37,247 nt of DNA from Bacilli bacterium (GTDB taxonomy: Bacteria; Bacillota_I; Bacilli_A; RF39; UBA660). Made by a program: the position numbers and the translations under genes. The notes below the pieces were generated by a model. It saw only the letters and a list, made by a program, of their open reading frames with translations, had not been told where the DNA came from and did not search any database. This document shows positions 3,760 to 26,398 of this stretch, piece by piece; the stretch's first letter is position 1; each line of letters starts with the position of its first letter. The stretch spans positions 1-37,247 of the forward strand of contig JAFYER010000013.1 of assembly GCA_017544165.1 (NCBI GenBank). The letters run 5' to 3'.

Positions 3760-3787
3760 AACAAAATTATTTGGGAGAGTTGTGAGA

Positions 3788-4915: not shown

Positions 4916-4925
4916 AAGGGATAAA

Positions 4926-6062
4926 ATGGAAAAGAAAGGAAGCCAAAAAACAAAAGTCACTAATACTAGCAAAAAAAGTGTAAGTGTAAAAAAGGCTATT
5001 GTTTCTAAAAATGTTTCACCAAAAAAGAGTGTGAATGATAATTTTTGGGAACGCGTTATCGTAAACACTATTTTATTTATAGTGTTTATAGCCGGTTGTT
5101 TTTTTGCTGCCACAAAAACCATTGAAAGAAAAAAAGCTGAACCAATTACGTATTCTGACACCAATAAAATTGAATATAAAGTTTATTTAAAAGACAATGA
5201 ATTCTATAAAGATGAATTTTTAGGAATGAATAGGGCATATGTAGCCAATTTAATTGACCACATAGATATTGATTATAGTTATTTGTTTAATATACAAACC
5301 ATTACCAAGATGGGCTTTAACTATCGGATTATTGCTCAGTTGATTATTGAAAATTCGAAGGGGATTAGCTTTGTCGACGAAAAATATGTCGTTAAAGATA
5401 CGGTTAGCAAGAGTATTAATAATACCGGAACATTTGCTGTTAACGAACATGCTGTTATCGATTATGGTTATTATAATTATTTAGCTAATAAGTTTAAGAT
5501 TGAAACAGGAGTCGATATTATCAGTTATTTAAATGTTTATCTAGAGGTTGATAAAAAGACTGATGAAAGTTTGAATTATGTGATAAATGATTCTAATAAG
5601 GCTAATATTAAAATACCATTATCTGAAAGGGCTTTGGAAATTAGTTTTGATGCTAATAATTTAGAGACAACTAAAAGCATTACTCCGGCTGAGGAAGTTG
5701 TTGTAAATTATCATTATTTAGCACTGGAAATAATGTTATTTATTATATCAACAATATTTATAGTTTTAATAATTAAAGATTTAGCAACACTTATAAAGAG
5801 TAAGACAGCATATGATAAATATGTCGATAAGCTTCTTAAAAATTATGATCGTTTAATAGTCGAAACCAAAACAAAATTTGATATGTCAAATTACAATGTT
5901 ACTTCGGTTAAAAGCTTTACCGAACTTCTTGATGTCCGCGATAATTTAAAGTTACCAATAGTTTACTACAATATTATTGAACATAAAAAAGGCATTTTCT
6001 ATATTAAGAATAATAAAGATATCTTTAGTCTTATTGTCGTAGAAAAGAACGCTAATAAATAG
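4926..6062 (+). CDS. Two-helix membrane protein, DUF5305-like, partner of the signal peptidase
   Basis: The 378-residue protein has a Lys/Ser-rich cytoplasmic N-terminus (residues 1-40), a membrane helix at about 43-62, an extracellular beta-rich domain of about 200 residues, a second helix at about 265-290 and a cytoplasmic tail of about 85 residues. This architecture, the opening YKVYLKDNEFY strand, and the position directly after a SipW/ER-type signal peptidase resemble DUF5305 proteins, which occur beside such peptidases in archaea and Bacillota. The function is unknown; an assembly or anchoring factor comparable in role to TapA is a guess. It starts 10 bases after the peptidase stop and ends directly before the next gene. 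Family assignment is from memory of the pattern. Confidence 0.55.
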   Translation: MEKKGSQKTKVTNTSKKSVSVKKAIVSKNVSPKKSVNDNFWERVIVNTILFIVFIAGCFFAATKTIERKKAEPITYSDTNKIEYKVYLKDNEFYKDEFLGMNRAYVANLIDHIDIDYSYLFNIQTITKMGFNYRIIAQLIIENSKGISFVDEKYVVKDTVSKSINNTGTFAVNEHAVIDYGYYNYLANKFKIETGVDIISYLNVYLEVDKKTDESLNYVINDSNKANIKIPLSERALEISFDANNLETTKSITPAEEVVVNYHYLALEIMLFIISTIFIVLIIKDLATLIKSKTAYDKYVDKLLKNYDRLIVETKTKFDMSNYNVTSVKSFTELLDVRDNLKLPIVYYNIIEHKKGIFYIKNNKDIFSLIVVEKNANK

Positions 6063-6071
6063 GTGGTTTTT

Positions 6072-8753
6072 GTGGCCAAAAAGAAGAAAAAGAAATTACA
6101 ATATATAAAAATGATAGCATACATACTTGTTTTATCCACTCTTTTTTTAAGTATTGGTTGGTCCGCTTACGAATCGACGATGGTAATGGAAAGTTATGCT
6201 TATGTTAGAATTCCTAGTGAGGTTAGAGTCACTGGTTTTTCTTTATATAGTGTTAATAATGGAGCAGTTGGTGCTTACGAAGACTACAATGTCCATTATG
6301 TGACCGCTAATGCGTCACTTCCTAATGCTAATTCGACTATTACCTACGAAGTTGAGATTACCAATATGCAACTTGCTCAAGGAGCATCAGTCGGCATATT
6401 AGATTATTCTGGCCTTCCGGAGGAATTAGATATTGTTTCTTGGAGTGGTTATAATTTAAAAGATAAAATATGTGATGATCAAAACCCTAGTGACTGTGGA
6501 AGTGGGGCTCAAAAAACATTTTATATAACAGTTGGCTACAAAGATGCTTCATATTATGATCCTAATGATACATATTTTATTTTTGATATTAACTTTGATT
6601 TTCGAGAGTTTCATAGCATTACTTATATGAATATAACTGGTAATTATCCTACCACTATTATAGATGGTGATGATTTAGATATTACACTAAACAATATACC
6701 TTCTTTGCAATTAGAGGTAAGAGGAACCCAAGAGTATTTAGAAAATACCGATTATACCTATACAAATGGTAATTTAGTTGTGGATAACATCGAAGAGGAT
6801 TTAACTATTCGGATGATTCCAACTTATACCATTACGTATAATGCCAATGGTGGTAGATTTAATAACAATCAAACAACAAATAATGTAACCTACGTTTGGC
6901 GATATAATCAAAATAATATTCTATCTGGGGCAGAAATAATGCCTACCAATAATGGGAATACTTTTTATAAATGGTATGATGATACAGGGTACAATACAGA
7001 ATTTGATATAACTCAAGAAATAAATCAAAGTAAAAGCGTATATGCAAGGTGGGTTAATGCCGTTGTGGAAATGAATGGAACTTTCTATACAAGTATCACT
7101 AATGCCCTTAATGCTATTACTGACAATACAAACTATACGACCATTACCTTACTTAAGGATACTAGTGAACATATTTCGATTGATACTCCTCAGAAGGTTA
7201 TTTTAGATATGCAAAATCATACAATTAGCAATAAGACTGGCACAGCTGTAGTAACTGTTGATGGCAAGTTAAAAATTCGTAATGGTACAATTACCTATAA
7301 TAATAATCAAAATGGTGTTATCAATGTAAATAGTGGTGGGGACCTTACTTTAACTGATACAAATGTCAGTATGACAAAAAATAATGGAAAGCAATGTTTA
7401 TACATAGCCGGAAATGTTTTAGTCGAAGGAAATAGTGTGTTAACTGCTGTTTCTAACCAAAGAGCTACTGTTCAAACTATTTCAGGTGGACAATTTACGA
7501 TAACCGGTGGAAGTGTTATATCAACTGGAAGTAAAAGTGCTATCGTTGTCTATAGTGGCCAATATGTAACTATTGGTACCCACGATGGGTTAGTTGATAA
7601 TGACAGCGTGCTTATTCAAGGAATAAACTATGGTATCGAAGGTAAGTTCTATTTATATGATGGAGTTGTAAAGGGTAAAAATGGTGTTTCTACTGAGGCT
7701 TCGCCGTTACTTGGCGTCGAGGATAACCAAGGAGGCATTTATGGTACCGAAACTATTAATGGGGTAAGCTATGAAACGCTTCAATTAACGGGTTCAAATA
7801 CGATAACTCTTGATCCTAATGGTGGAACTATGCTTGAAACGGTATTTTATGTTCGAACTGGCAGCCCTATTGGTCAACTTCCAAGTCCTTCAAGGGGTGG
7901 ATATGTCTTTATGGGATGGTATGATGAAAATAATCAATTATACAATGACCCTACATATATTGTAACCAGTGATTTAAATCTTACTGCTTCTTGGTCCCAA
8001 GAATATGCTGCTGCGATTGGTAATACCTATTATTATTCTGTTCAAGACGCAGTTAATGCAGCCACAAACAATACCTGGACAAATGTTGATTTAGTAAGAG
8101 ATGCTAGTGAAAATGTCACTATTAATGCTACAAAATATATCAATTTAAATTTACAATCTTATTCTATTAGCTTTAATGGGGCAGCAGCCGTTGTCGAGTG
8201 CTATGGAAGAATGGAAGTTTCTAATGGATCAGTAACATCAGCATCGTTAACTAACTCGGCATTTAATGTTCGCCAAGGTGGGCGAGCCCTTATTAATAAT
8301 GTTAATATACTCGCTACGGGCTCAAGACAAGCAGTTTATATTTATGGTGGTGGTTATGCAGAAATGTCAGGAACTGCTTATATTAGTTCCAAAACAACAG
8401 GTACACCAAGTGGGGCCTCAATTGAAAGAGGGACTGTTCAAAATCTAGCCAATGGAACATTAATAATTCATGGTGGGACGATTGTTGGTATTAATCAACA
8501 AGCCGTATCAAATGAAGGAACATTAATTATCGGCGATGATGATGGCGTTATCGATAATTCGACTATTGATATTCGTGGTAATACATATGGCGTTCGAAGC
8601 TCTGTTGGCTTTAGCTTCTATGATGGCGTTTTGAAAGGTCAAACGGCTGCCGTCTCGGGAACAATTGCAACTTGGGATACCAATTATACGTTGACCGATG
8701 GTCTTGAAACGATTGATGGTAATTCATACTATACAAAATATTTAGCACCTTAA
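6072..8753 (+). CDS. Large surface protein with duplicated InlB B-repeat and beta-helix modules
   Basis: The N-terminus has a Lys-rich stretch, a hydrophobic core and SIGWSAYESTM, matching the SIGFAAYTSTL processing region of the fibre protein upstream, so it is probably cleaved by the same peptidase. A beta-rich N-terminal domain follows. Then come two modules, each an InlB/Listeria-Bacteroides repeat (YNANGG...ARW; LDPNGG...MGWYDENN...ASW) and a pectate-lyase-like beta-helix of about 235 residues (first at about 7050-7790, second at about 8000-8745). The ends of the two helices match (YGIEGKFYLYDGVVKG, YGVRSSVGFSFYDGVLKG). GTG at 6072 is chosen because AGGTGG lies 5 bases upstream; a GTG at 6063 is also in frame. 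No sorting signal is present. Likely an adhesin or fibre-associated protein; no catalytic residues are recognised. Confidence 0.75.
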   Translation: MAKKKKKKLQYIKMIAYILVLSTLFLSIGWSAYESTMVMESYAYVRIPSEVRVTGFSLYSVNNGAVGAYEDYNVHYVTANASLPNANSTITYEVEITNMQLAQGASVGILDYSGLPEELDIVSWSGYNLKDKICDDQNPSDCGSGAQKTFYITVGYKDASYYDPNDTYFIFDINFDFREFHSITYMNITGNYPTTIIDGDDLDITLNNIPSLQLEVRGTQEYLENTDYTYTNGNLVVDNIEEDLTIRMIPTYTITYNANGGRFNNNQTTNNVTYVWRYNQNNILSGAEIMPTNNGNTFYKWYDDTGYNTEFDITQEINQSKSVYARWVNAVVEMNGTFYTSITNALNAITDNTNYTTITLLKDTSEHISIDTPQKVILDMQNHTISNKTGTAVVTVDGKLKIRNGTITYNNNQNGVINVNSGGDLTLTDTNVSMTKNNGKQCLYIAGNVLVEGNSVLTAVSNQRATVQTISGGQFTITGGSVISTGSKSAIVVYSGQYVTIGTHDGLVDNDSVLIQGINYGIEGKFYLYDGVVKGKNGVSTEASPLLGVEDNQGGIYGTETINGVSYETLQLTGSNTITLDPNGGTMLETVFYVRTGSPIGQLPSPSRGGYVFMGWYDENNQLYNDPTYIVTSDLNLTASWSQEYAAAIGNTYYYSVQDAVNAATNNTWTNVDLVRDASENVTINATKYINLNLQSYSISFNGAAAVVECYGRMEVSNGSVTSASLTNSAFNVRQGGRALINNVNILATGSRQAVYIYGGGYAEMSGTAYISSKTTGTPSGASIERGTVQNLANGTLIIHGGTIVGINQQAVSNEGTLIIGDDDGVIDNSTIDIRGNTYGVRSSVGFSFYDGVLKGQTAAVSGTIATWDTNYTLTDGLETIDGNSYYTKYLAP

Positions 8754-12750: not shown

Positions 12751-13476
12751 ATGAATAAAAAAAGCATATTTTTGATGTTACTTTTGATGTTTTTTGCTAA
12801 TTTGAGGGTTGATGCAGTGAGTAGTTGTTCCTATAAAGAACAAGCAGAACTAAATAGTGAAGCGGCTCAAATTAAGGTGAAATACGAGGAGAAATCGGAG
12901 CTTTATTATCCACCAGCCGAATATTGCGGTGAAGCGGGGGAAGGATGCTCTGTAAATAATTATTATTTCACCATAACAATATTAAATATGAGTGAGAATT
13001 TTTATATTGAGGTTGATGGTAATAAAAACAAACAATTAACTTTTACTTATGATGATGTAAAAGACGGCATTATCACTTTTAATTATGAAAATGTTGATGA
13101 AATTGGAAATTTCACATTTAATGTTTACTCATCAAGCGAAACTAATTGTGCTTATGAAAAATATCGGGTTATTCATTTTACTACGCCTAAATTTAATAGA
13201 TATTATTATGATGGAGAGTGTTCAAACGTTCCTGATTATTATTTGTGCCAAAAATATATTACAACGGAAGAACCAAAATATGGTGATTTCTTAAACCAAA
13301 TTACTGAGTACAAAAAGCAGTTAAATGAAGAAAAAGAAAAAAACAATCGGAATTTTTTAGAAAAAATTTTTGATTTTGTAGATAATCATAAAACTTTGCT
13401 CGGTATTACAACCACCATTGTCGTTGCAGGGGTTGTTACAGTAGTGATTGTTAAGAAAAGGAAAGAGTCAATATGA
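12751..13476 (+). CDS. Secreted, C-terminally membrane-anchored Cys-containing protein
   Basis: The 241-residue protein has an N-terminal signal peptide (residues 1-22, ending VDA). The ectodomain is of about 180 residues, rich in Tyr, Asn and Glu, with eight cysteines after the leader, mostly spaced as CxYxE, CGExGEGC and CxxVPDYYLC. A charged helical stalk (about 185-210) and a C-terminal membrane helix (about 216-235) with a KKRKESI tail follow. No sortase motif precedes the helix. The stop overlaps the start of the giant adhesin gene (ATGA), implying coupled expression and perhaps a physical partnership, such as a membrane anchor or chaperone for the adhesin. The family is not recognised. 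Confidence 0.75.
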   Translation: MNKKSIFLMLLLMFFANLRVDAVSSCSYKEQAELNSEAAQIKVKYEEKSELYYPPAEYCGEAGEGCSVNNYYFTITILNMSENFYIEVDGNKNKQLTFTYDDVKDGIITFNYENVDEIGNFTFNVYSSSETNCAYEKYRVIHFTTPKFNRYYYDGECSNVPDYYLCQKYITTEEPKYGDFLNQITEYKKQLNEEKEKNNRNFLEKIFDFVDNHKTLLGITTTIVVAGVVTVVIVKKRKESI

Positions 13477-16400
13477 AAAGAATATTAAAAAAATCGTTAA
13501 TATTATTTGCTTTATGTTTATTTAGTACTAAAAGCGTCAATGCTTTTGAAGTAAATAGTAGTTACTCACTATCTTCTTCAACAACTATCGGACAATATGT
13601 AAATAGAATAAATCATAAATACAAGATTGGCGAAAATTATTATACAACTTATAATCCTATTGGCCACGCTGCGGTAGATTCTAGTGGTAATACTTATGCA
13701 GCTTATTGTTTAGACCCTGGACATTCTACTGATCCATCCAATAGCTATTTCGTTTCAAGAACATTAATGAGTGAAGATAATTTGAGTGCAAGAGACTATG
13801 GCCTTTTAACAATACTTAAGCATGCATCTTCAAATTCTTGGGGTGATTCTAACTTTTTTATTACTCAACATGCAGTTAGAATGTATATTGATGTTTTTCT
13901 TGGTTGGGCAAATCCAACATTTTATAATCAAGGTAGTCAAAATACATATCCAAATGTTCAAGCATATGCTGGTGCAGTTTATCGAGCTATTGTTAAAGAC
14001 CCTGATTTGCAAGAAGCTTATGTTGCATTAACAAAAGGCGTGTATGGTAATTACACAGACATTCCTAGCGTTTTTGGAATGTCAGGCACTAATGAAAGTA
14101 CGATAAAATATTTTTCTGGTAGTGACATTGATGCTGCAATTGATGTCCTTAAAGATGGTGTTTATGCCGCTTTAAGTTATCAAAATGGAAAAGCAGAAGT
14201 GCAAGATGCTAATTTAGAACTTTTGGGTGTCGAAAAAACTGATGAAGAAGACACTAAACTAGCAATAGTTGCTCTAAAATTAAAAGGCATCTCTAGTTTG
14301 AAATTAAGTGATGCAATTACGATAGTTATTGGTAGTAATGTCCTTAATGCAGAATTAATTGGCGTGTCAGAAACATATGAATTAAATGAAGACGCCTATG
14401 AATCAAAAGACTGGTTGACAATATCTGAAGATGAAAAAACTTTATATTTAGCATTCCGTATTCAACATGTTGTTCCTGAAGAAGGTTCAGAAACCATAAA
14501 TGGTTCAATTAATGTTAATTTCCATTTAGAAGGATCAAATTTCTTATCTGGAGCCGTTTTACATGCTAAAAATGAAACTGCTGGAAAAAATTATCAAAGA
14601 TTTGTTATTTTTACTAATGATAGTAGCGAACTTAATCGTAATTTAGGTATTCCTATAAGTGCTGATCCTGAGGATATAACAGAAGAAAAGGAACCTTGTA
14701 ATCCTGAATATAATTTACCACCTGTTTGTCAAGATGATTCAGGTGAAGTTAATGATGATAATTCAGTAACATATTCTTTTAAAGAAGGCGTAGTTGATGG
14801 AAAGTCTTCAATAATTGCATGTATTGTTGAAAATACTGATTTAGCTACAAATGACTATCAATTAATTGACGATAGATCAGAGGTCGTAAGCGATAATGCT
14901 TATTGTGCCGTATATTGTAAGGAAGATTATAGTTTTGATTTGCCATATAAGCAACATGTAGATAATGGCCGTTATTTCCGTATTCGACTAGGAATAAAGG
15001 GACAACAAGATTGCTATTTATCAAAAATGAATAAAAAGCAATTTAATAAAGATGTTATCGAAGCTCAAAAAGGCATAGTAGATGCTTATAATGATTGGTT
15101 AAAATATTATGAACTTGCTAATGCAATCTCTCTTAACCAATTTGTGGGTACAGGCGAGTATGATACATGTTACGATGAGCAATGCAGTAAAAAAACCGAT
15201 GATGATGGTAAGCTTACAAGTTGTTCAGAAGAAGAAGCTGAAACCTATAGTTCAGAAGAAAGCAAAAAAGTTGTTTTCAAAGGTACATATTATGCTTACA
15301 CTGAAAGTGGCGGTAGTTTAACTGTTGCTGCTTCAGCAGCAAAGAAACCTGAAGATGTCGAATTTAATAACGATTTTACTGACCCAACTCTTTCATGTAC
15401 AAAGAGCGGTGATACGTGTAGTTCAACCGGTTCGAAAGAGTGTACCATAGAAGATGGCGATGATGCCGAAAGTATATACAAAGCTGAAAGAGATGAAGAA
15501 ACAACAGGCTATAAAGCTCTTGAGAAATCTAAGAAAAAAGTGCTTGTTGCCAAAATTGAGAAATTAAAAGAAATTATAGACGAATATAATAGCTGTATGG
15601 ATGATGATGATTATAAACCTATTAGTGGTGCATATGAAAACAATCACACCTGGGATATGATTTATGATTACGATCCTGAGATTTCGTATAGTTATCAAGA
15701 ACCAGACCCAACTAGTATCGATACACCAAAGTGGATTACGGAAGTTCAAAGCCTTGGCGCCGATATAATGGAACCTGTTAAACGTGATCCTGATAGCCCT
15801 GAACCAGCAGAGTACATTAAAGCTGGCGAATGCGAGGAAAGTGGCGAAGATGGTATATGCCAAGAAGTTGAAACTGTCGAATTGATTTTTGGTGGTGAAA
15901 GCCCCGTTAAAGAGTATTGTAAAGAAAACGATTTAGATAAAGAAACCTATGAATGTTCTGCAGGATTAACTAAACCTACATATTCAAATAATAGCTATTT
16001 CACTTGTGAAATTAGTGAAACCGGTGGGGTTAGTTGTGGTTCTAAAACATTTAAAGTTACCGATATTTCTTATTTACATAAAGTTGCTGTAGCCGGCGGT
16101 ACGTATGATACTCCACGTGTCTATTATTCATACCATACGGATGGCAGTGTAGTTATTGACACTGATTATCCTGATATAGAAAACAATTATGATCGTATTG
16201 ATGGACTTCCTGTTGGAATTAATACACCATATGGTACTTATTTATATCGTTTATCATTAAATAACATTGGTAAATATTATAATACTGGTGAACTTGGAAG
16301 AATTTATAGTGATGATTCTACTAGCTTAGTAATGAAAGTTAAAGAAGCTGCTGAGACCAGTGATGGTGAAACAGTTGGTAAAAATGAATATGTTTGTACT

Positions 16401-19001
16401 TATGATGTTCCTCATGAAGACGTTAATCCGGATAAATGGTGTGTAATTTATGAAGATAAATATTATGTATGTGATACAGAAGTATATGATGAAGATTGCG
16501 AAGAAAAAGCTAGTTTAGAAGAAGCTAAAAACGATAGCAAATATCATGATAATTGTAGTGAGACGGTTGAAAAACCTTATACTTATTGTAATGAACACGA
16601 AGGTAACTATTATGTGTGTACAACTCCTGATTATCAAGATGACGATGAGGTATGTCAATTATATCCTTCTAGGGAAGCCGCTATAAATGCTAGTGATTTT
16701 ACATATGGTTGTAGTGAAAAAACTTATTGTGTTCAAAAGGGAAAAGAATATTATGTTTGTACTCAACCTACTTACGACAAAAAGAAATGTCAATCATATG
16801 GAAGCGGAAGCGAAGCAAGGGAAAAAGCTAGAAATAATAGCGAAGATAAGTCTGGCTGTAATGAATATGATTTAACATATTGTATAAGAAAAGGAAAAGA
16901 ATATTTTGTATGTACACAAAATAGTTATGATGAAAAGGCTTGTGAATCATATGGTACTAATAAATTAGCAGCCCTTTATGCTTCTGATAATGATGATGGT
17001 TGTGGTGCATTATATTGTGTTCCTCATAAAGATAAGTATTATGTATGTTTGACTAATTATTATTATAAATCTACATGTGACGAAGCCGACTCATTAGATG
17101 ATGCCTTAAATAATAGTGATGAACCAGGTAATTGTGTGCCAAAAGAGGATGAAACTTGGTGTGTAAAAAAGGGAACAGAGTATTACGTATGTACTCAATC
17201 TACGTATGACAAAAAGAAATGTATAGGGCCAAAATCTTTGGAAGAAGCACAAGAAATAAGTACTTATGATGGAAATTGCTTGTTTAATGACGATACATGG
17301 TGTGTAAAATATAATAGTAAATATTATATATGTCCACAAGAAGGTTATGGTGATAATTGCGCGCTTGCTGCAAATAGGGTAACAGCTTTAAAATCAAGCA
17401 AGAAAAATTATAATTGTCCTGTACCTACTTGGTGTATAAAGGAAAATGATCAATACTATATTTGTGAAAGCAATGTTTATACTTCTGAGAAATGTACATC
17501 GGCTTCTTATAGCGACGCAGTTAATAAGAGTACATATGACGTTAACTGTGTTGAGGAAACCTGGTGTGTAAAACATGATAGCAGTTATTATGTGTGTACT
17601 CAATCTGATTATGAGGAAGATAAATGTCAACCATACTATAACAATAAAGAACAAGCTATAAAAGATAGCAAGTATGATAGTAATTGTACAGAAACATGGT
17701 GTGTAAAAGAGGGAAGTACATATTATGTATGTACTCAACCTGGCTATGATAAAGATAAGTGTCAATCATATGAAAATAATAGGACACTTGCAATTGATTC
17801 AAGTAAGCAAAATTATAATTGTTCAGAAGTAACGTATTGTGTTGAAAACGCAGGTAAGTATTATTCATGTAAACAAAATAAATATTCAGAAAAAGATGGT
17901 GATTGTAGTGAGCCTTATATTACTAGGGAAGAAGCAATTAAAAATAGTAGTTATCCTGGAAACTGTGTAAATTATTGTATAGAAAATGAAGGTTCATACT
18001 ATTCTTGCTCTCAAAAAGAGTATTCATCCGATACTAATATCTGTAAACCATATTATGATGATTGCAGTTCAGCAATATCAGCAAGTTATGAAAACATTAA
18101 CTGTAAATGTGATAAACAAAGTCTTGAATATTGTGTAAGAACCGCTAGTGGATATTATTCTTGCAAGGAAAAAAAATATGATCCAAGTTGTATTAAGCAT
18201 GAAAATAGAATCAAAGCTTTAGAGTCAGTAAATTGTAATCCTGATGATGAGGATTGCGAAAATGATTATAATTGCCGTTGTCCTAAATGTACAGTAACTT
18301 GTTATGATACATGTATTCAAAAGCCAACAAAGAAGCCTTCTGAGGATGTAACTTATGAATTATTATTTAATTTTAATGCTATAACTCCAGCCAAAGTTAA
18401 TATTAATGGCCGAGAAATGGGTTATAACTGGGATATAAATAATCCTAAAAATGTTTTAATAGCGCGTAAAGCTGCAAATACGATATCAGAAATCGAGGCT
18501 AGAGCTAATGTTGTAAATGTTTCAAGTGAACCTGAAATAGAAAAAGTTCAAGATTATGACTTTAAAGTTACAATGTCTCCAGCAGTTACTACTTGGGTAA
18601 GAGAATACAATCGTTCACAACTAGATAGTGGAAGCTACAATAATGATTCTATGAAGTGTTATGACTACGAAATCGATAGCGGAACAGGTATTAACTCTGA
18701 AGGTGAATGTAAGAAAGCAGGCTACACATGGAAAGATAATAAATGTGTAATGGCTAATATTTTCTGCTATAGTGAGTTTATTGATGAATTAGTTGAAAGA
18801 CAACCTGATGCCGTTGATAACGAGACTTTAACAAGACGTAATAATGCAAAGACAGCATCATTTAATAATTATACAAGTTATAAATCTTTACCATATACTG
18901 AAACACCGATAGTAACAAATGATTACTGGACGATTTATATATATGATAAATTAGATATTAATGGTGATGGTATTCCAGATATTGGACCATCATGGAAGTA
19001 G
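13473..19001 (+). CDS. Giant secreted adhesin: thioester-type domain plus 13 Cys-rich repeats
   Basis: The 1842-residue protein has a signal peptide (residues 1-24, SVNA). The N-terminal domain has the hallmarks of a Gram-positive thioester adhesin domain: AAYCLDPG with Cys79 and TQHAVRMY with Gln132 (family motifs YC-x and TQxA), a pair that can form an internal Cys-Gln thioester reacting with host amines. Beta-rich segments follow to about residue 400, then acidic Cys-containing regions to about 985. Residues 989-1588 hold 13 tandem repeats of about 46 residues with four cysteines each. A CPKCTVTCYDTC cluster and a C-terminal domain end in a calcium-loop-like DINGDGIPD. There is no LPXTG, membrane anchor or S-layer motif, so attachment must be by another route. 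Its position directly before pilin and Tad genes suggests the pilus displays or secretes it. Confidence 0.82.
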   Translation: MKRILKKSLILFALCLFSTKSVNAFEVNSSYSLSSSTTIGQYVNRINHKYKIGENYYTTYNPIGHAAVDSSGNTYAAYCLDPGHSTDPSNSYFVSRTLMSEDNLSARDYGLLTILKHASSNSWGDSNFFITQHAVRMYIDVFLGWANPTFYNQGSQNTYPNVQAYAGAVYRAIVKDPDLQEAYVALTKGVYGNYTDIPSVFGMSGTNESTIKYFSGSDIDAAIDVLKDGVYAALSYQNGKAEVQDANLELLGVEKTDEEDTKLAIVALKLKGISSLKLSDAITIVIGSNVLNAELIGVSETYELNEDAYESKDWLTISEDEKTLYLAFRIQHVVPEEGSETINGSINVNFHLEGSNFLSGAVLHAKNETAGKNYQRFVIFTNDSSELNRNLGIPISADPEDITEEKEPCNPEYNLPPVCQDDSGEVNDDNSVTYSFKEGVVDGKSSIIACIVENTDLATNDYQLIDDRSEVVSDNAYCAVYCKEDYSFDLPYKQHVDNGRYFRIRLGIKGQQDCYLSKMNKKQFNKDVIEAQKGIVDAYNDWLKYYELANAISLNQFVGTGEYDTCYDEQCSKKTDDDGKLTSCSEEEAETYSSEESKKVVFKGTYYAYTESGGSLTVAASAAKKPEDVEFNNDFTDPTLSCTKSGDTCSSTGSKECTIEDGDDAESIYKAERDEETTGYKALEKSKKKVLVAKIEKLKEIIDEYNSCMDDDDYKPISGAYENNHTWDMIYDYDPEISYSYQEPDPTSIDTPKWITEVQSLGADIMEPVKRDPDSPEPAEYIKAGECEESGEDGICQEVETVELIFGGESPVKEYCKENDLDKETYECSAGLTKPTYSNNSYFTCEISETGGVSCGSKTFKVTDISYLHKVAVAGGTYDTPRVYYSYHTDGSVVIDTDYPDIENNYDRIDGLPVGINTPYGTYLYRLSLNNIGKYYNTGELGRIYSDDSTSLVMKVKEAAETSDGETVGKNEYVCTYDVPHEDVNPDKWCVIYEDKYYVCDTEVYDEDCEEKASLEEAKNDSKYHDNCSETVEKPYTYCNEHEGNYYVCTTPDYQDDDEVCQLYPSREAAINASDFTYGCSEKTYCVQKGKEYYVCTQPTYDKKKCQSYGSGSEAREKARNNSEDKSGCNEYDLTYCIRKGKEYFVCTQNSYDEKACESYGTNKLAALYASDNDDGCGALYCVPHKDKYYVCLTNYYYKSTCDEADSLDDALNNSDEPGNCVPKEDETWCVKKGTEYYVCTQSTYDKKKCIGPKSLEEAQEISTYDGNCLFNDDTWCVKYNSKYYICPQEGYGDNCALAANRVTALKSSKKNYNCPVPTWCIKENDQYYICESNVYTSEKCTSASYSDAVNKSTYDVNCVEETWCVKHDSSYYVCTQSDYEEDKCQPYYNNKEQAIKDSKYDSNCTETWCVKEGSTYYVCTQPGYDKDKCQSYENNRTLAIDSSKQNYNCSEVTYCVENAGKYYSCKQNKYSEKDGDCSEPYITREEAIKNSSYPGNCVNYCIENEGSYYSCSQKEYSSDTNICKPYYDDCSSAISASYENINCKCDKQSLEYCVRTASGYYSCKEKKYDPSCIKHENRIKALESVNCNPDDEDCENDYNCRCPKCTVTCYDTCIQKPTKKPSEDVTYELLFNFNAITPAKVNINGREMGYNWDINNPKNVLIARKAANTISEIEARANVVNVSSEPEIEKVQDYDFKVTMSPAVTTWVREYNRSQLDSGSYNNDSMKCYDYEIDSGTGINSEGECKKAGYTWKDNKCVMANIFCYSEFIDELVERQPDAVDNETLTRRNNAKTASFNNYTSYKSLPYTETPIVTNDYWTIYIYDKLDINGDGIPDIGPSWK
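16437..18236 (+). repeat. 13 tandem ~138-bp coding repeats (four-Cys modules)
   Basis: Each unit starts [WY]C[VI], has YY[VIS]C about 8 residues later, a third Cys after 6-9 residues, then an A-rich helix and a fourth Cys after about 18 residues (usually in YxxNC). First residues of the units read WCVIYEDKYYVC, YCNEHEGNYYVC, YCVQKGKEYYVC and so on to YCVRTASGYYSC. Units in the middle (about 16720-17780) are most alike (CTQPTYDKKKC, CTQSTYDKKKC, CTQPGYDKDKC), the last three diverge. Repeats are clear in protein but imperfect in DNA. Confidence 0.9.
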
Positions 19002-19016
19002 GAAGGAGGTAGATTT

Positions 19017-19757
19017 ATGAAAGAAGCGTATTGGGGATATTGGTTAATTGTTTTAGGAGTTTTTATCATCGTGGTATTATTGCTTGTTCAAAATTATACC
19101 TCTACTAACTCCCAAGATTTTTATCTTGTTAAAGAGATTGCCGAAGCCGCTATGGAGGATTCTCTTGATTATGGTTATTACCGTACTTATGGTGAAGCAA
19201 AAATCAATAAAGAAAAGTTTTATGAATCTTTTATTAGAAGATTTGCTGAAGAGGCTTCATTGTCAACAACTTATAATATTGAATTTACAGAAGTATTTGA
19301 AGCCCCTCCTAAAATAGGAGTAAAGGTATCAAGTAAATCTAATTCATTCAGTGTATTTGGCGATTCTGAATCGTTTGATATAGTTCATAAACTTGATGCT
19401 ATTATGGAATCTAAAGTTAGTGGAGCCTCTGCTAACTATAGCGATGGAGTGTCAGAATTCCAAGCTGGAACTGCTGCCGATTATATTGATTCATATTTTA
19501 ATGATGAATATACAACTGGAGACTTCGATGGGTTACCATGTAATTATAAAGGTACTAAAATAATAGTTGAATATTGTGGCACTTTAAACCATTATGGACT
19601 ATTATTATATGAAGATGCCTTAGAAGATGAAGTGTTCTGTGTAGCACATGCAGCTGGTGATAAAACTCGTTTAATTGTCGCTCAAAAAGAATCATTTACT
19701 GATATGTTATGTAATCCAAGTTATGTAGCAGATGGTTACAGTTCAACTAAACCATAA
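19017..19757 (+). CDS. Pilin-like/TadE-like membrane-anchored protein
   Basis: The 246-residue protein has a strongly hydrophobic helix at residues 8-26 after MKEAYWG, then an extracellular domain with three cysteines. The N-terminus (MKE[AS], a glycine, then a long helix) recurs in the three small proteins at 23465-24504. The run of residues after the helix (LVKEIAEAAMEDSLDYGYYR) resembles TadE/TadG-type minor pilins. It starts 16 bases after the adhesin stop with AAGGAGG at 19003-19009. The likely role is a minor pilin or tip subunit linking the adhesin to the pilus; this is inference from order and shape. Confidence 0.65.
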   Translation: MKEAYWGYWLIVLGVFIIVVLLLVQNYTSTNSQDFYLVKEIAEAAMEDSLDYGYYRTYGEAKINKEKFYESFIRRFAEEASLSTTYNIEFTEVFEAPPKIGVKVSSKSNSFSVFGDSESFDIVHKLDAIMESKVSGASANYSDGVSEFQAGTAADYIDSYFNDEYTTGDFDGLPCNYKGTKIIVEYCGTLNHYGLLLYEDALEDEVFCVAHAAGDKTRLIVAQKESFTDMLCNPSYVADGYSSTKP

Positions 19758-19799: not shown

Positions 19800-20570
19800 A
19801 TGGGAAATATTATTAATACAATTAAGAAGCTTGTAGCTAATAAAAATACCGTAACAATTCTTGGTGTTATAGCTGGCGTAATAGTATTATGGGGATTTTA
19901 TAACTATCGTGTAAGTGAGGCTACCTCGCCAACTAAGGTACCATATGCTAAAGCATCTATATCCGCTACCGAACAAATTACTGAGGATAATATTGGGTTT
20001 GTTGAAGTAAATAGTAAACTGTTGAAAACTGCCGATGTTATTAGAAATAAAAATGAACTTGTAGGTATGTATGTTACAACGGGAACATCCATTCCTGCCG
20101 GCGGATTATTTTATAGAAGCCAAGTAGTTAAGAAAAGCCAATTACCAAATACAGATTTTGATGATATCGAAGATGGTTATACAATTTATGTATTATCTGT
20201 TAATAACCATACAACTTATGGTAATTCAATATATCCAGGTGATATTATAGATTTATATTTAAAAGCTACAGATGATAATAAAAAAATAATGTTTGGTAAA
20301 TTTATTGAAAAAATTACTGTATTAAATGTCAAAGATGCACAGGGAAAACCTGTATTTGATAGTAATCCACCTAGAACTCCAGCAGAGTTATTATTTGCTG
20401 TACCAAACGATATGTATGAATTATTGATGAAGGCAGGATATATTAGTGGTATTCAAGTTATTCCTGTCCCTCGAAATAAAAAATATACTTCTGAGGGTGG
20501 AGAAGTTAAAACATATCAATTTTTAAAAGAATTTATTCTTGCTAAAACATCAGTAATACCAGAGGTATAA
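19800..20570 (+). CDS. cpaB: Flp pilus assembly protein CpaB/RcpC (SAF domain)
   Basis: The 256-residue protein has one N-terminal membrane helix (about 17-34) and an SAF domain: VPYAKASISATEQITEDNI, then NKNELVGMYVTTGTSIPAGGLFY, the usual CpaB/FlgA-like layout. A second domain with LSVNNHTTYGNSIYPGDIIDLY and a long C-terminal part follow. In diderms CpaB works with the secretin; here, with no secretin, it probably acts at the cell wall during pilus extrusion. A strong AGGAGG lies 6 bases before the start, and the gene leads directly into the ATPase gene. Confidence 0.82.
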   Translation: MGNIINTIKKLVANKNTVTILGVIAGVIVLWGFYNYRVSEATSPTKVPYAKASISATEQITEDNIGFVEVNSKLLKTADVIRNKNELVGMYVTTGTSIPAGGLFYRSQVVKKSQLPNTDFDDIEDGYTIYVLSVNNHTTYGNSIYPGDIIDLYLKATDDNKKIMFGKFIEKITVLNVKDAQGKPVFDSNPPRTPAELLFAVPNDMYELLMKAGYISGIQVIPVPRNKKYTSEGGEVKTYQFLKEFILAKTSVIPEV

Positions 20571-20591: not shown

Positions 20592-21701
20592 GTGAAAGAT
20601 GCTATATTTTCACAATTAGATTTTGGACCATTATCAGAATTTTTAAATGATGATAATGTAACCGACGTATCTTATTCTAATGGTGGTCAAGTATGGCTTA
20701 AGACATTAGACAAAGGTATATATAGTGTAGAACGTCCTGCGATTAATAATGCATTAATGGAAAAACTTGCATTTCAATGTTCAAATGTAATGGGTGTGAC
20801 ATTTAATATGGCACATCCTTTCTTGGATGCTGAAGGAGCAGAACTTCGTCTTAACTTTGTCCATGAGTCTATCGCGACGAATGGTATAGCATGTGTTTTA
20901 AGAAAAACTCCCGCTAAAATAAGATTAAACAAGGCGAAATTACTTGATGAAAAATATGTAACAGAGAATCTTCATGATTTTTTAATAGCTTGTGTAAAAG
21001 CTCACTGTAATATTATCGTAAGTGGGGAAACTGGTTCAGGTAAAACAGAGTTAGTAAAGTACTTAGCATCTAACACGGAGGAAAATGAAAAGATAATTAC
21101 AATTGAGGATACTCTAGAATTGCACTTAGATCGAATTTTTCCTCATCGTGATATTGTAGCCATGAAAACAAATAATATTGCTTCTTACTCTGATGTACTT
21201 GTTACATGTATGCGGCAAAACCCTAAATGGATATTACTTTCCGAGGTTCGTTCTGCCGAAGCCGTAACTGCTGTACGTAATTCGATTTCTTCAGGTCACA
21301 ACATTATATCGACTATTCACTCAGATAAAGCCCAAAATATTCCAATGCGTCTTTATTCCTTACTTGAAGGTAGTCAAGACATTGATCAATTTTTAAAGTC
21401 AATTCATAGGTATGTTCAAATAGGTGTGCATGTAAAAGGTTATATGAGTGCCGAACTACAAAGATTTCAACGGGAAATTGTTGAGGTTTGTGAATTTTAT
21501 GTTGATAATCAAAACGTTGCTAGAACAAATATTATTTTTCAAAAGGGCTTAGATGGAACTATTACATTTAATAATCCAACTAAATACTTGCGTGATTACT
21601 TTGGTGCTCAAGGTAAATTATTAAAAGAAGATTATTTTGTTGAAAACAATGATGAAAATAAACCTGTCGAGAGTAACGACATGGTTATTGATACATTATA
21701 G
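20592..21701 (+). CDS. tadA: Tad/Flp pilus assembly ATPase (TadA/CpaF)
   Basis: This is the cytoplasmic secretion ATPase driving pilus assembly, a VirB11/GspE superfamily member of 369 residues. Walker A is GETGSGKT (145-152), the Asp box is IITIEDTLEL (168-177), Walker B is ILLSEVRSAEA (214-224; LLSE instead of the commoner VVGE) and the His box is GHNIISTIHSD (235-245). It starts with GTG at 20592, with AGGGAGTGA upstream. It is shorter than many CpaF proteins because the N-terminal helical domain is abbreviated. It is followed after 12 bases by the TadB-like gene. Confidence 0.92.
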   Translation: MKDAIFSQLDFGPLSEFLNDDNVTDVSYSNGGQVWLKTLDKGIYSVERPAINNALMEKLAFQCSNVMGVTFNMAHPFLDAEGAELRLNFVHESIATNGIACVLRKTPAKIRLNKAKLLDEKYVTENLHDFLIACVKAHCNIIVSGETGSGKTELVKYLASNTEENEKIITIEDTLELHLDRIFPHRDIVAMKTNNIASYSDVLVTCMRQNPKWILLSEVRSAEAVTAVRNSISSGHNIISTIHSDKAQNIPMRLYSLLEGSQDIDQFLKSIHRYVQIGVHVKGYMSAELQRFQREIVEVCEFYVDNQNVARTNIIFQKGLDGTITFNNPTKYLRDYFGAQGKLLKEDYFVENNDENKPVESNDMVIDTL

Positions 21702-21713
21702 AAAGGTAAGAAT

Positions 21714-22607
21714 ATGGAACTAATTATATTATTATTAATTGCGGTTTTTATAGTATTATATCGACAAAACCCTGGTGAAAATGTATATAAGTTTTTTATA
21801 GGAAATGTATCTAATGCATATGAAAAGTATGCACCATATTCTTTCAAGTCAGTACGTGAAAAAGTTAAAGAGCTTGGACAAGAGTATACCGCTAGGCAAT
21901 ATTTATCACAAATAGTTTTATTTGCTGGTTTTGCTGGCTTAATTGGATATTTATACTTTTATAGTATTATATGGTCTGTTTTATATGCATTAGTTGCTAT
22001 CACATTTATTCCATATTTAGCTTACTTGCGATGTCAAAGAGTTTATTCTGAGTATATATTTGAACAAATACAAACCTATTGTACAAATGTCATTATGGAG
22101 TTTAATACAACTCAAAGTTTTGTTAAATCGCTCGAGGGTGTAAGAGATTCGGGTATTATCGAAGATCCTGTGCTTTCTGATATCAAAAAAATGATTGATA
22201 TGTCTTATGAAAATGGTACAATAGACGAATCAATAGAGTATTTTAATGAAAAATATCCATTTTATATGGTAAAAAATATGCATCAACTTTTCTATCAAAT
22301 TACCAAAGAGGGAGCAAGAGATGCAGGTCAATCACTTGAAAATATGTCAATGGATATTGATGCCCTTGTCGAAGGCGTTTATCGTGATCAAATGGATCGG
22401 AGAGATTTCCATACACGATTTCTTACATTTGGCGTGGCATTATTCTTTTTAATACTAGCATTACAATACATGTTAACAATTAATACATATCTTCAACTGA
22501 TTGAAATGTGGTATGTTCAAATCCTTTTACACGCAATTATCATTATTAATGCATTTTTCTTGCTGAAAGGTGAGAAATATTATAATGCGGATGTGGGGGT
22601 TGAGTAA
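21714..22607 (+). CDS. tadB: Tad pilus inner-membrane platform protein TadB-like
   Basis: The 297-residue protein has a membrane helix at the N-terminus, a helix pair at about 65-105, a cytoplasmic GspF/T2SSF-type helical domain (YIFEQIQTYCTNVIMEFNTT... ENMSMDIDALVEGVYRDQ) and C-terminal helices. This is the arrangement of TadB/TadC, which form the platform on which TadA acts. It ends one base before the ATG of the TadC-like gene. TadB rather than TadC is assigned by gene order and fold. Confidence 0.8.
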   Translation: MELIILLLIAVFIVLYRQNPGENVYKFFIGNVSNAYEKYAPYSFKSVREKVKELGQEYTARQYLSQIVLFAGFAGLIGYLYFYSIIWSVLYALVAITFIPYLAYLRCQRVYSEYIFEQIQTYCTNVIMEFNTTQSFVKSLEGVRDSGIIEDPVLSDIKKMIDMSYENGTIDESIEYFNEKYPFYMVKNMHQLFYQITKEGARDAGQSLENMSMDIDALVEGVYRDQMDRRDFHTRFLTFGVALFFLILALQYMLTINTYLQLIEMWYVQILLHAIIIINAFFLLKGEKYYNADVGVE

Positions 22608-22608
22608 T

Positions 22609-23397
22609 ATGTATATTGAAATAGTAATAATTGCTGTAATTATTTTTGTAATTATGTTTGCATCAGGTCAAATATCATTTACTCAATTAATATCTGATAA
22701 TGAGGCACTATTTAGAAGATTAAAAGAAGAAGATTGGGATTTTTATGTAAAAGCTAAATATGGTAATTTAGTTAATCCCGATATTCTATTTAATCAGAGA
22801 GTTAGAAATGGGGTAATTACAATCTTTGCTGTAATGCTTGCTTTCATTGGCAAGTTATCTGCAATCACTTTAGTAATTTGCTTTGCAGCAGGATTTGCTG
22901 TATTTAAATTCAGTTATATGGATATTAAAAGCTATTATAAAAAACATATAAATGAAATTGATGCCATGTTACCACATTACCTAAAAAGTATTGAAATTTT
23001 GATTCAACATTATACCGTGCCTGTTGCAATTGGTAAATCAATGGCTGATGCACCGGCTATATTCAAAGATGGTTTACAAGAATTAATTAATTCAATTAAT
23101 TCAGGTGATAATAGTATATATCCATATATGGAATTTGCTAAAACTTATCCGGTAAGAGATAGTATGCGAATGATGAGACTATTATATCGGCTAAGTATTG
23201 GTCGTCAAGATCGTAAACAAGAACAATTACTAGCTTTTTCGAGAACGATTTCGAATCTTCAACAAAAGGCTAGGGAAACAAAATATAAAAATCGTTTGGA
23301 AAAAATGCAAAAAATGACAATGAAAATGTTAGTTACAACTGGTATTGGGGTTATGATTTTGTTAATTTTATCTGTTTTACAAATGATTGACCTATAA
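22609..23397 (+). CDS. tadC: Tad pilus inner-membrane platform protein TadC-like
   Basis: The protein has 262 residues from the chosen ATG. An N-terminal helix (YIEIVIIAVIIFVIMFA) is followed by a helix pair near 70-100, a cytoplasmic helical domain (IDAMLPHYLKSIEILIQHYTVPVAIG) typical of T2SSF proteins, and a C-terminal helix. ATG at 22609 is preferred to the overlapping ATG at 22570 because it follows the TadB stop directly, has a GGGGGTTG ribosome site and begins at the membrane helix. It is the partner of the preceding protein in the assembly platform. Confidence 0.78.
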   Translation: MYIEIVIIAVIIFVIMFASGQISFTQLISDNEALFRRLKEEDWDFYVKAKYGNLVNPDILFNQRVRNGVITIFAVMLAFIGKLSAITLVICFAAGFAVFKFSYMDIKSYYKKHINEIDAMLPHYLKSIEILIQHYTVPVAIGKSMADAPAIFKDGLQELINSINSGDNSIYPYMEFAKTYPVRDSMRMMRLLYRLSIGRQDRKQEQLLAFSRTISNLQQKARETKYKNRLEKMQKMTMKMLVTTGIGVMILLILSVLQMIDL

Positions 23398-23464: not shown

Positions 23465-23713
23465 ATGAAAGAAGCTACTGGTGAATTATCTACAACAATG
23501 ATTGCCGTTGTTGCTATTGCAGCTGTACTTACAATTTTTACAGTTGTTTTATTACCATATTTAAGGAGTAGTTTAAATTCTAGACTTCACTGTGCTGATG
23601 CTACTTGTCCAACTGATTGTACAGATGCAACTTGTGCATGTACTTATATAGATGAAAATGGCGCTGCAACTGCTGTAACATGTAACAATCCAAATCATGG
23701 TGAAACTGATTAA
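23465..23713 (+). CDS. Small Cys-rich pilin-like protein (candidate major pilin)
   Basis: The 82-residue protein has a short N-terminus MKEATGEL, one hydrophobic helix (about 10-32) and a small exposed domain with six cysteines (CADATCPTDCTDATCACTY...VTC). Size, single N-terminal helix, its own promoter and strong ribosome site, and position after TadC fit a Flp-type major pilin. It lacks the usual basic leader ending in glycine with Glu at +5, so processing is either at Gly6 or absent. Its paralogue follows immediately. Confidence 0.68.
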   Translation: MKEATGELSTTMIAVVAIAAVLTIFTVVLLPYLRSSLNSRLHCADATCPTDCTDATCACTYIDENGAATAVTCNNPNHGETD

Positions 23714-23991: not shown

Positions 23992-24504
23992 ATGAAAGAA
24001 AGTGTTGGGATAACACAATTGTATGCTTTAGTAGTAGTCCTAATAATTTTATTTGCGGGAATAATGGCTTTTGCTATCAATCGTGCTAATTCATTTGCTA
24101 TAAAAGATAAAATTGTTAATATATTGGAAAAACATGATGGTTTTGATTTAACTCATGAGTTAATAGGTGGAATGGATTATTCTGATTGTGATCAAGAGCA
24201 TTTTGATGATGCACTTGAAGAAATCGTGTGTTCTTTACAAGAACTTTCTTATCGACAAACAGGAGTATGTCCGGAATTTGAAGGGAATGTTGAAGTGGTT
24301 GGTTATCAAAGAAACGGGACAAAGACCACCGGTAATAATAAATCATCTTTTTGTATTGTAAAGCAATCAGGGAATGCAAGTAAAAGTGGTGTGGTTAACA
24401 TGTATTATTATCAAGTAATTGTATTTTATCATTTGGATTTACCCATTGTTAGACAGTTATTTAGTTTTAAGAATATTGGCCAAACAAAGGCTTTGTATCA
24501 ATAG
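23992..24504 (+). CDS. TadE-like minor pilin
   Basis: The 170-residue protein begins MKESVGITQLY, followed by a long hydrophobic helix (about 12-30) and an extracellular domain with four cysteines. The pattern after the helix (AINRANSFAIKDKIVNILE) resembles TadE/F-type pseudopilins. It shares the MKE[AS] N-terminus with three other proteins of the locus. It lies between the pilins and the TadZ-like gene, AAGGGG ribosome site. Role as a minor pilin is inferred. Confidence 0.62.
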   Translation: MKESVGITQLYALVVVLIILFAGIMAFAINRANSFAIKDKIVNILEKHDGFDLTHELIGGMDYSDCDQEHFDDALEEIVCSLQELSYRQTGVCPEFEGNVEVVGYQRNGTKTTGNNKSSFCIVKQSGNASKSGVVNMYYYQVIVFYHLDLPIVRQLFSFKNIGQTKALYQ

Positions 24505-25585: not shown

Positions 25586-25954
25586 ATGAATTTAAATGCT
25601 GTTGGAACTGATAAAGGTTTTTGTTATCAAACTTCAGGTATTTGGCAATTTGCTGGTTATGCAGTAATGGTATTAAAGATTGTTATTCCTGCGATATTAA
25701 TTATTTTAGGAATTGTTGCATTAGGGAAGGCTGTAATTGCTGCTGACGACAAGGAAATTAAAACTGCTGTTAACTCATTAATTAAAAAGTTTATTGCAGC
25801 TGTTATTATCTTCTTTATACCTGCCATTGTTTCTGCATTATTTGGTGTTGTTGCACAATTTAATGATGTACAAAATGATTATGAAGTATGTGTTAATTGT
25901 ATTACTAGACCAACTAAAGACCCTTGTAAAACTGCAGTTAATGCGACAACATAA
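25586..25954 (+). CDS. Small two-helix membrane protein, VirB2/TrbC-like shape
   Basis: The 122-residue protein has a short N-terminus GFCYQTSGIWQFAGY, a first helix IVIPAILIILGIVALGKAVIA, a charged cytoplasmic turn (DDKEIKTAVNSLIKK), a second helix FIAAVIIFFIPAIVSALFGVV, and a tail with VCVNC...C. This two-helix-with-basic-turn layout resembles T4SS pilin-like (VirB2/TrbC) proteins, but no other conjugation gene is here. It has its own promoter and terminator, suggesting high or separately controlled expression. A close paralogue follows. Confidence 0.62.
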   Translation: MNLNAVGTDKGFCYQTSGIWQFAGYAVMVLKIVIPAILIILGIVALGKAVIAADDKEIKTAVNSLIKKFIAAVIIFFIPAIVSALFGVVAQFNDVQNDYEVCVNCITRPTKDPCKTAVNATT

Positions 25955-25959
25955 TATTT

Positions 25960-25989
25960 TAACTAGTTTTATACTAGTTATTTTTTTTT
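25960..25989 (+). terminator. Rho-independent terminator
   Basis: TAACTAGT (25960-25967) and ACTAGTTA (25973-25980) form a perfect 8-bp stem with a 5-base loop followed by nine T. Confidence 0.92.
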
Positions 25990-25994
25990 GCATA

Positions 25995-26003
25995 TGATAT
26001 AAT
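25995..26003 (+). promoter_or_regulatory. Extended -10 promoter before the second two-helix protein
   Basis: TGATATAAT: a perfect TATAAT (25998-26003) with a TGn extension, directly after a terminator and 23 bases before the start codon. The -35 region (TAGTTA, inside the terminator stem) is weak. Confidence 0.55.
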
Positions 26004-26026
26004 AGCACTCGTGTGGAGATGATATC

Positions 26027-26398
26027 ATGGATTTGTTTGGTACTGAATATGGTTTTTGTGCGCAAACAGCTGGTTTATGGCAATTAGTTGGTTATTTAAT
26101 ACTAATAGCTAAGATTGTTATACCTGTTTCATTAATTATATCCGGCATAATAATACTAGGAAAAACAGTTATATCAAGTGATGAAAAAGAAAATAAAGAT
26201 GAATATAAAAAACTTACTAGGTGTATAGTAGCAGGAATTATGGTTTTCTTTATACCATACATTATATCTGCTATGTTTGGGGTAGTAAATGGTTTTAATG
26301 ATTTAAAACCTGATTATAATGTTTGTAAAAGATGTATGACTCATCCTAACAGTGAATATTGCAATGATAAAGTTCTAGCAATAGAATATAATGATTAA
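26027..26398 (+). CDS. Small two-helix membrane protein, paralogue of the previous
   Basis: The 123-residue protein has the same architecture as the protein at 25586-25954: GFCAQTAGLWQLVGY, helix IVIPVSLIISGIIILGKTVI, charged turn SSDEKENKDEYKKL, helix IVAGIMVFFIPYIISAMFGVV, and tail VCKRC...C. The conserved C, W, P and the tail CxxC are shared, the rest has diverged, so the duplication is old. It has its own promoter and terminator. The function is unknown; a pilus-associated subunit is possible from position alone. Confidence 0.62.
   Translation: MDLFGTEYGFCAQTAGLWQLVGYLILIAKIVIPVSLIISGIIILGKTVISSDEKENKDEYKKLTRCIVAGIMVFFIPYIISAMFGVVNGFNDLKPDYNVCKRCMTHPNSEYCNDKVLAIEYND

Follow-up and report, generated by a model that had tools for sequence, protein, structure and literature searches.

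A Thirteen-Unit Four-Cysteine Array as the Probable Stalk of a Thioester-Domain Surface Adhesin in a Tad/Flp Locus of Gut Bacilli

A locus on contig JAFYER010000013.1 of a Bacilli bacterium (assembly GCA_017544165.1; GTDB lineage Bacillota_I; Bacilli_A; RF39; UBA660) raises the question of what role a run of thirteen four-cysteine repeats plays in an exported protein, and how its many cysteines are paired, in an organism that we infer from its habitat to be anaerobic. The window analyzed here is the whole stretch of 37,247 nucleotides (positions 1 to 37,247), and all features described in it are on the forward strand. The repeats had been noted in a preliminary description made from the letters of the window. 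Our results make it probable that the array serves a thioester-domain surface adhesin of a Tad/Flp locus as a disulfide-stapled stalk, and that it was amplified in this lineage. This extends the preliminary description in two respects: the array would be only the stalk portion of a larger thioester-domain protein in a Tad locus, and its unit would be an amplified form of one that is single-copy in related genomes.

Identification of the Array and Conservation of Its Cysteines

The array is part of a giant, exported, cysteine-rich protein of 1842 residues with 86 cysteines, encoded by the open reading frame at 13473..19001. A Sec-type signal peptide spanning approximately residues 1-25 (13473..13547) was recognized by eye (MKRILKKSLILFALCLFSTKSVNA) and is kept in homologs. 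Within the protein, a regular expression for the motif [WY]C-x(6)-Y[YF]-x-C-x(8-11)-C-x(14-22)-C identified 13 consecutive copies of 44-52 residues each at 16437..18236 (residues 989-1588), with units starting at 16437, 16584, 16725, 16878, 17013, 17157, 17298, 17430, 17562, 17697, 17835, 17973, and 18129. In contrast, 2000 composition-preserving shuffles yielded at most one copy (mean of 0.03). The number and position of the repeats in the preliminary description are thus borne out, as is its estimate of about 52 cysteines: the interval contains 54, comprising 52 framework cysteines, all of which are kept, and two extra cysteines in unit 12, where the last gap of the motif includes an extra cysteine. 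The four-cysteine [WY]C module that it outlined also stands, with the correction that the first spacing is x(6) rather than x(8), whereas its alanine-rich helix reduces to a single near-invariant alanine.

The mean identity among units is 38% at the amino acid level and 54% at the nucleotide level, and Tandem Repeats Finder detected no repeat array in the region; collectively, these observations indicate that the units are old. A recent expansion and an assembly artifact were rejected on the same evidence, and a phage origin was set aside when no match was identified among phages or viral contigs. Across 20 units (the 13 described here and seven from congeners), only the four cysteines, Y9, and Y17 are invariant, with all 80 framework cysteines kept, and Y10 and the helix alanine are each present in 19. 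This indicates that the cysteine frame was maintained as almost all other positions changed.

Comparison of the unit with Pfam, NCBIfam, and PDB sequences returned no match, an absence that does not exclude a known domain, and an AlphaFold2 (AF2) model of three units (predicted local distance difference test, pLDDT, of 86) retrieved only noise and no significant fold match from PDB and viral structures. These results agree with the earlier remark that the unit was not recognized as a named domain. The model predicts a strand-strand-strand-helix order in each unit. Neither observation that had been put forward as fatal to the preliminary description was encountered: the searches turned up no known domain, and homologs retain the cysteines.

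The N-Terminal Head Resembles Class II Thioester Domains

On the basis of motif and predicted fold, we take the N-terminal head (residues 26-395; 13548..14657) to be a class II thioester domain (TED). Published TEDs combine an aromatic-cysteine motif with a distant glutamine in a PhiQzPhiPhi motif (PMC4450167, PMC6194298). In the head, the [YFL]C-hydrophobic-hydrophilic cysteine motif (PF08341, PMC6194298) is found as Y78-C79-L-D, and the glutamine motif as YQ375RFV, downstream of SGAxL and of a beta-sandwich insert at model residues 225-374. The putative thioester Cys79 of YCLD (13707..13709) is invariant among 42 aligned homologs and present in 18 of 18 in the closest set, and the putative thioester Gln375 of YQRFV (14595..14597) is present in 17 of the 18 when that set is aligned. 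The glutamine of the TQHAV helix was also considered as the thioester glutamine but was rejected since the bond-forming residue is another glutamine (PMC4450167), for which residue 375 is the candidate.

An AF2 model of residues 21-395 (pLDDT 74; predicted template modeling score, pTM, of 0.74) runs from strands through helices to the beta-sandwich, as class II TEDs do. Its best Foldseek match is EfmTIE86 (6fwy; E = 5.9e-5, probability 1.00). With VIA, the seven best matches are all thioester domains (Z of 9.1-10.6), including BaTIE (6fwv; Z of 10.6), Cpa (Z of 10.3; 151 residues at 3.3 Å), and SfbI (Z of 9.1), while the first non-TED match has a Z of 8.0. A Pfam scan of the first 420 residues of the 42 homologs detected TED in six (best E = 2.6e-5).

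A second thioester-domain protein is encoded on contig 7 of the same genome (L050, G000:C7, 11384-13174) and contains Cna_B-like repeats; the whole protein has only two cysteines. When a profile of the window head was compared with this protein, only the cysteine motif aligned, and a single sequence is too thin a basis for further comparison.

Distribution and Amplification of the Unit

Homologs of the giant gene were identified in eight of nine congeners (not in G005) and across the family. The unit is present in exactly one copy in seven of the nine congeners, directly before the C-terminal domain, and is absent from G001; 13 copies were identified only here. A profile search of 386 family genomes recovered the unit in only two genera, with one copy in G389. 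Unit 13 (18129..18236) is the counterpart, by position and sequence, of the single unit of congeners. Phylogenetic reconstruction grouped it with the congener units (97% bootstrap support with that of L034) and the other twelve together, although most nodes were weak. The simplest history is that one pre-existing unit was amplified in this lineage.

A different four-cysteine module, CxDxxGxxHxxxxC...C...CP, neighbors the unit in the congener homolog L034 (G007:C18, 6662-11209) and occurs there in four copies at the same hinge; its multiplication is an independent amplification. The presence of thirteen units here against one in congeners, together with the amplification of a different four-cysteine unit at the same hinge in L034, argues for a role of the array as a stalk. 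In the more distant homologs L100 (1867-7782) and L040 (8305-12888), other cysteine-rich repeats are inserted after the head and before the conserved core, and the proteins total 80 and 70 cysteines, respectively. The named relatives are metagenome-assembled genomes assigned to uncultured Bacilli, Mollicutes, or Tenericutes. Host guts are the source of several: goat rectum, the rumen of water buffalo and of roe deer, wild mice, and, to judge from an isolate name, possibly rabbit. Across the giant gene family, in this one group of gut Bacilli, proteins contain 27-86 cysteines.

The Locus and the Remainder of the Protein

The gene order of the locus is of the Tad type and is conserved. Immediately upstream of the giant gene, and overlapping it by 4 bp, is a gene for a 241-residue partner (12751..13476) with a signal peptide, six cysteines, and a C-terminal transmembrane helix with KKRK; a similar gene lies just upstream in the relatives that were read. 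Downstream are genes for a DUF5411 membrane protein (19017..19757; PF17424, E = 1.4e-52), a CpaB/RcpC-like SAF protein (19800..20570; SAF, E = 6.6e-5; RcpC, E = 6.7e-5), and a CpaF/TadA ATPase (20592..21701; T2SSE, E = 6.6e-29). Probable TadB-like (21714..22607; no Pfam match) and TadC-like (22570..23397; no good Pfam match) membrane proteins were assigned by position and conserved order. These are followed by a small Flp-like pilin of 82 residues with a cysteine-rich tail (six cysteines; 23465..23713, assigned by sequence), a TadE-like pseudopilin (23992..24504, assigned by its N-terminal helix and position), and two small cysteine-containing membrane proteins that resemble T4SS_pilin (25586..26398; PF18895, below cut-off). 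The set is that of a Tad/Flp locus, with CpaF and CpaB identified by Pfam and the TadB/C-like, Flp-like, and TadE-like members by position and sequence only. The order partner, giant, DUF5411 recurs across the family.

Cysteine enrichment extends beyond the giant protein (4.7%) to the partner (2.5%), the small pilin (7.3%), and the two small membrane proteins (3.3-4.1%). Across the locus, six proteins that are exported or lie in the membrane contain 2.3-7.3% cysteine, in contrast to 0.3-0.8% in other exported-looking proteins of the window, in keeping with the earlier impression of an unusually cysteine-rich locus.

Beyond head and array, the giant protein includes a conserved cysteine-rich core (14697..15152) in which C409, C419, C450, C478, C482, and C514 are near-invariant in 19 homologs. 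Downstream of the array is a cysteine cluster (18255..18314) comprising CxCPxC, kept in congeners as C(x)CPxC, and two further cysteines. The C-terminal domain (18315..18998) follows. The protein ends in IGPSWK and carries no LPXTG anchor and no C-terminal transmembrane helix. A Pfam scan of the full-length protein returned no match at E up to 1, to Cna_B or to any other family.

The Array as a Stalk and Alternative Explanations

If the array is a stalk, each unit of about 46 residues would be an independently folding module in which a beta hairpin is followed by a third strand and a short helix. The most likely arrangement of the four cysteines is two disulfides within the unit, which would stand in for the isopeptide bonds of the Cna_B stalks in ordinary thioester adhesins. 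Pairing of the first cysteine with the second appears unlikely since their register, as read from predicted secondary structure, places them on opposite faces of the hairpin. The single unit of congeners would have given rise to the 13 found here, after which the copies would have diverged with the cysteine framework held. A longer array may provide more reach between the membrane or pilus side and the N-terminal head, which in turn would form a covalent bond, through C79 and Q375, with an amine presented on the surface of a host or bacterium. Of the elements of this explanation, the array, its conservation, the copy numbers, and the gene order are direct observations and the folds of unit and head are predictions, whereas the disulfides, the thioester chemistry, the stalk geometry, and attachment to the pilus or to the membrane partner are inferred.

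Several observations weigh against parts of this explanation. The TED match of the window head itself (residues 77-167) has an E of 0.06 and 14.2 bits, under the Pfam cut-off of 22. The counterpart of the TQxxPhiW helix motif, which is neither essential nor universal among class II TEDs (PMC6194298), is TQHAVR, with arginine for tryptophan, and the TQ is lost in most homologs. Many family members lack the GAxL...QR glutamine signature and several have a second cysteine 14-19 residues past the first, which suggests that a thioester is not general in the family. The three-unit model leaves the arrangement between units uncertain (pTM 0.54, four sequences) and does not support a straight rod. Once the thioester cysteine is set aside, 14 of the 17 thioester-type members contain an even number of cysteines, which is consistent with full pairing, but the counts were drawn from related sequences, which weakens the p value (~0.006 if independent). 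Attachment of the adhesin to a Tad pilus is suggested by gene order and by that alone. Lastly, searches of the ten genus genomes for VKOR, DsbB, and DsbA-like (Thioredoxin_4) proteins returned no match over cut-off (PF01323 was not searched), so that how disulfides form, as asked in the preliminary description, is a genuine question.

The units could instead be ligand-binding repeats that engage mucin, glycan, or matrix multivalently, in which case amplification would raise avidity rather than lengthen a spacer. As in binding repeats, the units differ strongly in their surface residues around a fixed cysteine frame, and the conserved aromatics Y9, Y10, Y17, and W/Y1 could make a binding face. 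However, one unit suffices for congeners at the same hinge, and the occurrence of a different cysteine module at that hinge in one congener, and of cysteine repeats elsewhere in other lineages, suits a spacer better. We regard a ligand-binding array as unlikely.

It is also conceivable, if rather less so, that the locus encodes a secretion or DNA-transfer machine and not an adhesive pilus, with the giant protein as a secreted substrate or a mating-pair adhesin. DUF5411 with CpaF has been predicted to form a secretion-related system in gut Clostridia (PMC9523054), efficient conjugation of pLS20 needs a class II thioester adhesin (PMC8092201), and two neighbors of the giant gene weakly resemble type IV secretion system pilins. 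Nevertheless, the CpaB/SAF, CpaF, Flp-like, and TadE-like genes make up a Tad set, and no relaxase or coupling protein was identified in scans of the window.

Metal binding by the cysteines, which the preliminary description had offered as an alternative, would turn the array into a rod loaded with metal ions or a reservoir for them. The failure to find disulfide-forming enzymes in the genus and the reducing nature of the gut lumen would accord with such a rod. However, the unit contains no CxxC or CxC knuckle (its spacings are 9, 8-11, and 14-22) and no conserved histidine, which renders metal binding less likely, and export of the protein across the membrane and the parity of cysteines over the whole protein also speak against it; we consider a metal rod improbable. 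A partly reduced array that exchanges disulfides with mucins as a thiol-based mucoadhesive would accord with the host-gut source of several named relatives, the many exported thiols, and the lack of an identified oxidase, but is very improbable given that the strict keeping of four cysteines and their spacing suggests a folded structural role and that no free cysteine is conserved beyond the four.

Oxidative Folding in the Genus

Searches for DsbD_TM in the genus genomes returned no match over cut-off. This genome encodes two strong thioredoxins, both cytosolic-looking. A membrane-anchored CxxC thioredoxin-fold protein was identified in six congeners (E of 1e-65 or better), encoded beside frr where neighbors were read (e.g., L134 764-1300, L135 546-1067, and L136 472-1005); it was not found in this genome, which is 88% complete. 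This protein is a candidate exported thiol oxidoreductase. Obligate anaerobes reportedly keep cysteine out of the proteins that they export (PMC12453122), which makes the giant family unusual for its setting. A more far-reaching proposal, which we regard as doubtful, is that an uncultured genus of gut Bacilli makes a heavily disulfide-bonded adhesin in the absence of DsbA/DsbB or VKOR by means of another exported thiol oxidase, for which the membrane-anchored CxxC protein would be the candidate, and that the four-cysteine unit is a new disulfide module replacing isopeptide stapling in thioester adhesins. With 27-86 cysteines per protein and no recognized oxidase, the giant family offers a way to test oxidative folding in anaerobes with a single protein and ten genomes.

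Comparison with Known Systems

The giant protein shares with the class II thioester adhesins BaTIE (6fwv), EfmTIE86 (6fwy), SaTIE, and p34 of pLS20 an N-terminal head, an aromatic-cysteine motif, a distant PhiQzPhiPhi glutamine past an inserted beta-sandwich, and, by prediction, the fold. It differs from them in what is probably a cysteine-rich stalk in place of Cna_B isopeptide domains, in the lack of LPXTG, and in its Tad locus. The LPXTG anchor by which thioester-isopeptide-ester (TIE) proteins are defined is thus absent from the giant protein, as a sortase signal is from pLS20 p34 (PMC8092201). In the proposed association of its thioester head with a pilus, here by way of a Tad-type locus, the giant protein is also similar to Cpa (Spy0125), the thioester pilus-tip adhesin of Streptococcus pyogenes. 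The pilus of Cpa is assembled by sortase, and Cpa is not known to contain cysteine repeats.

Similar to periscope proteins (PMC9704523), the giant protein would present an N-terminal head on a repeat stalk, with copy numbers that differ between relatives. However, the repeats of periscope proteins are highly identical and vary within populations, whereas the units described here are only about 38% identical (54% in nucleotides, with no array detected by Tandem Repeats Finder) and vary, as far as was seen, only between species. The predicted secretion-related CpaF-GspF-DUF5411 operon of gut Clostridia likewise combines CpaF, a membrane protein, DUF5411, and a putative adhesion protein (PMC9523054), but belongs to a different bacterial class, and its adhesion protein is partly homologous to internalin B and not to a thioester domain. 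The Kil system of Myxococcus resembles the locus in coupling Tad machinery to variable proteins that are presumed to occupy the tip (PMC12075869); those tips are minor pilins, whereas the giant protein carries a Sec signal peptide, and inspection of it revealed no prepilin signature.

A search for thioester domains combined with Tad pili found nothing in the literature collection that was covered. Collectively, these comparisons indicate that the giant protein is a new form of thioester adhesin rather than a system of a new kind. In known thioester adhesins, the stalks are stapled by isopeptide or ester bonds and the anchors are mostly sortase-dependent, whereas here the head would be carried on a stalk of cysteine repeats encoded within a Tad locus. 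Should such a stalk prove true, it would represent a second chemical solution to the same mechanical task and a new type of protein displayed with Tad machinery.

Additional Observations

Of 50 homologs, 48 carry a GP[SA][WY][KR]-like motif within their last 30 residues, and in 38 the motif is exactly terminal. The near-invariance of this C-terminal GP[SA]WK (window 18984-18998), within an otherwise very divergent family, makes a docking or sorting signal possible. In L049 (9457-14124), one continuous open frame covers both partner and giant, which are separated by a second signal-like helix, and the partner matches its N-terminus (BLASTP, 8e-18); this frame is either a true fusion or the product of a lost stop. 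Elsewhere in the window (3782-8753), genes for a signal peptidase of family S26, a DUF5305-like protein, and a List_Bact_rpt (Flg_new) protein lie in a row and comprise another small surface-protein cluster.

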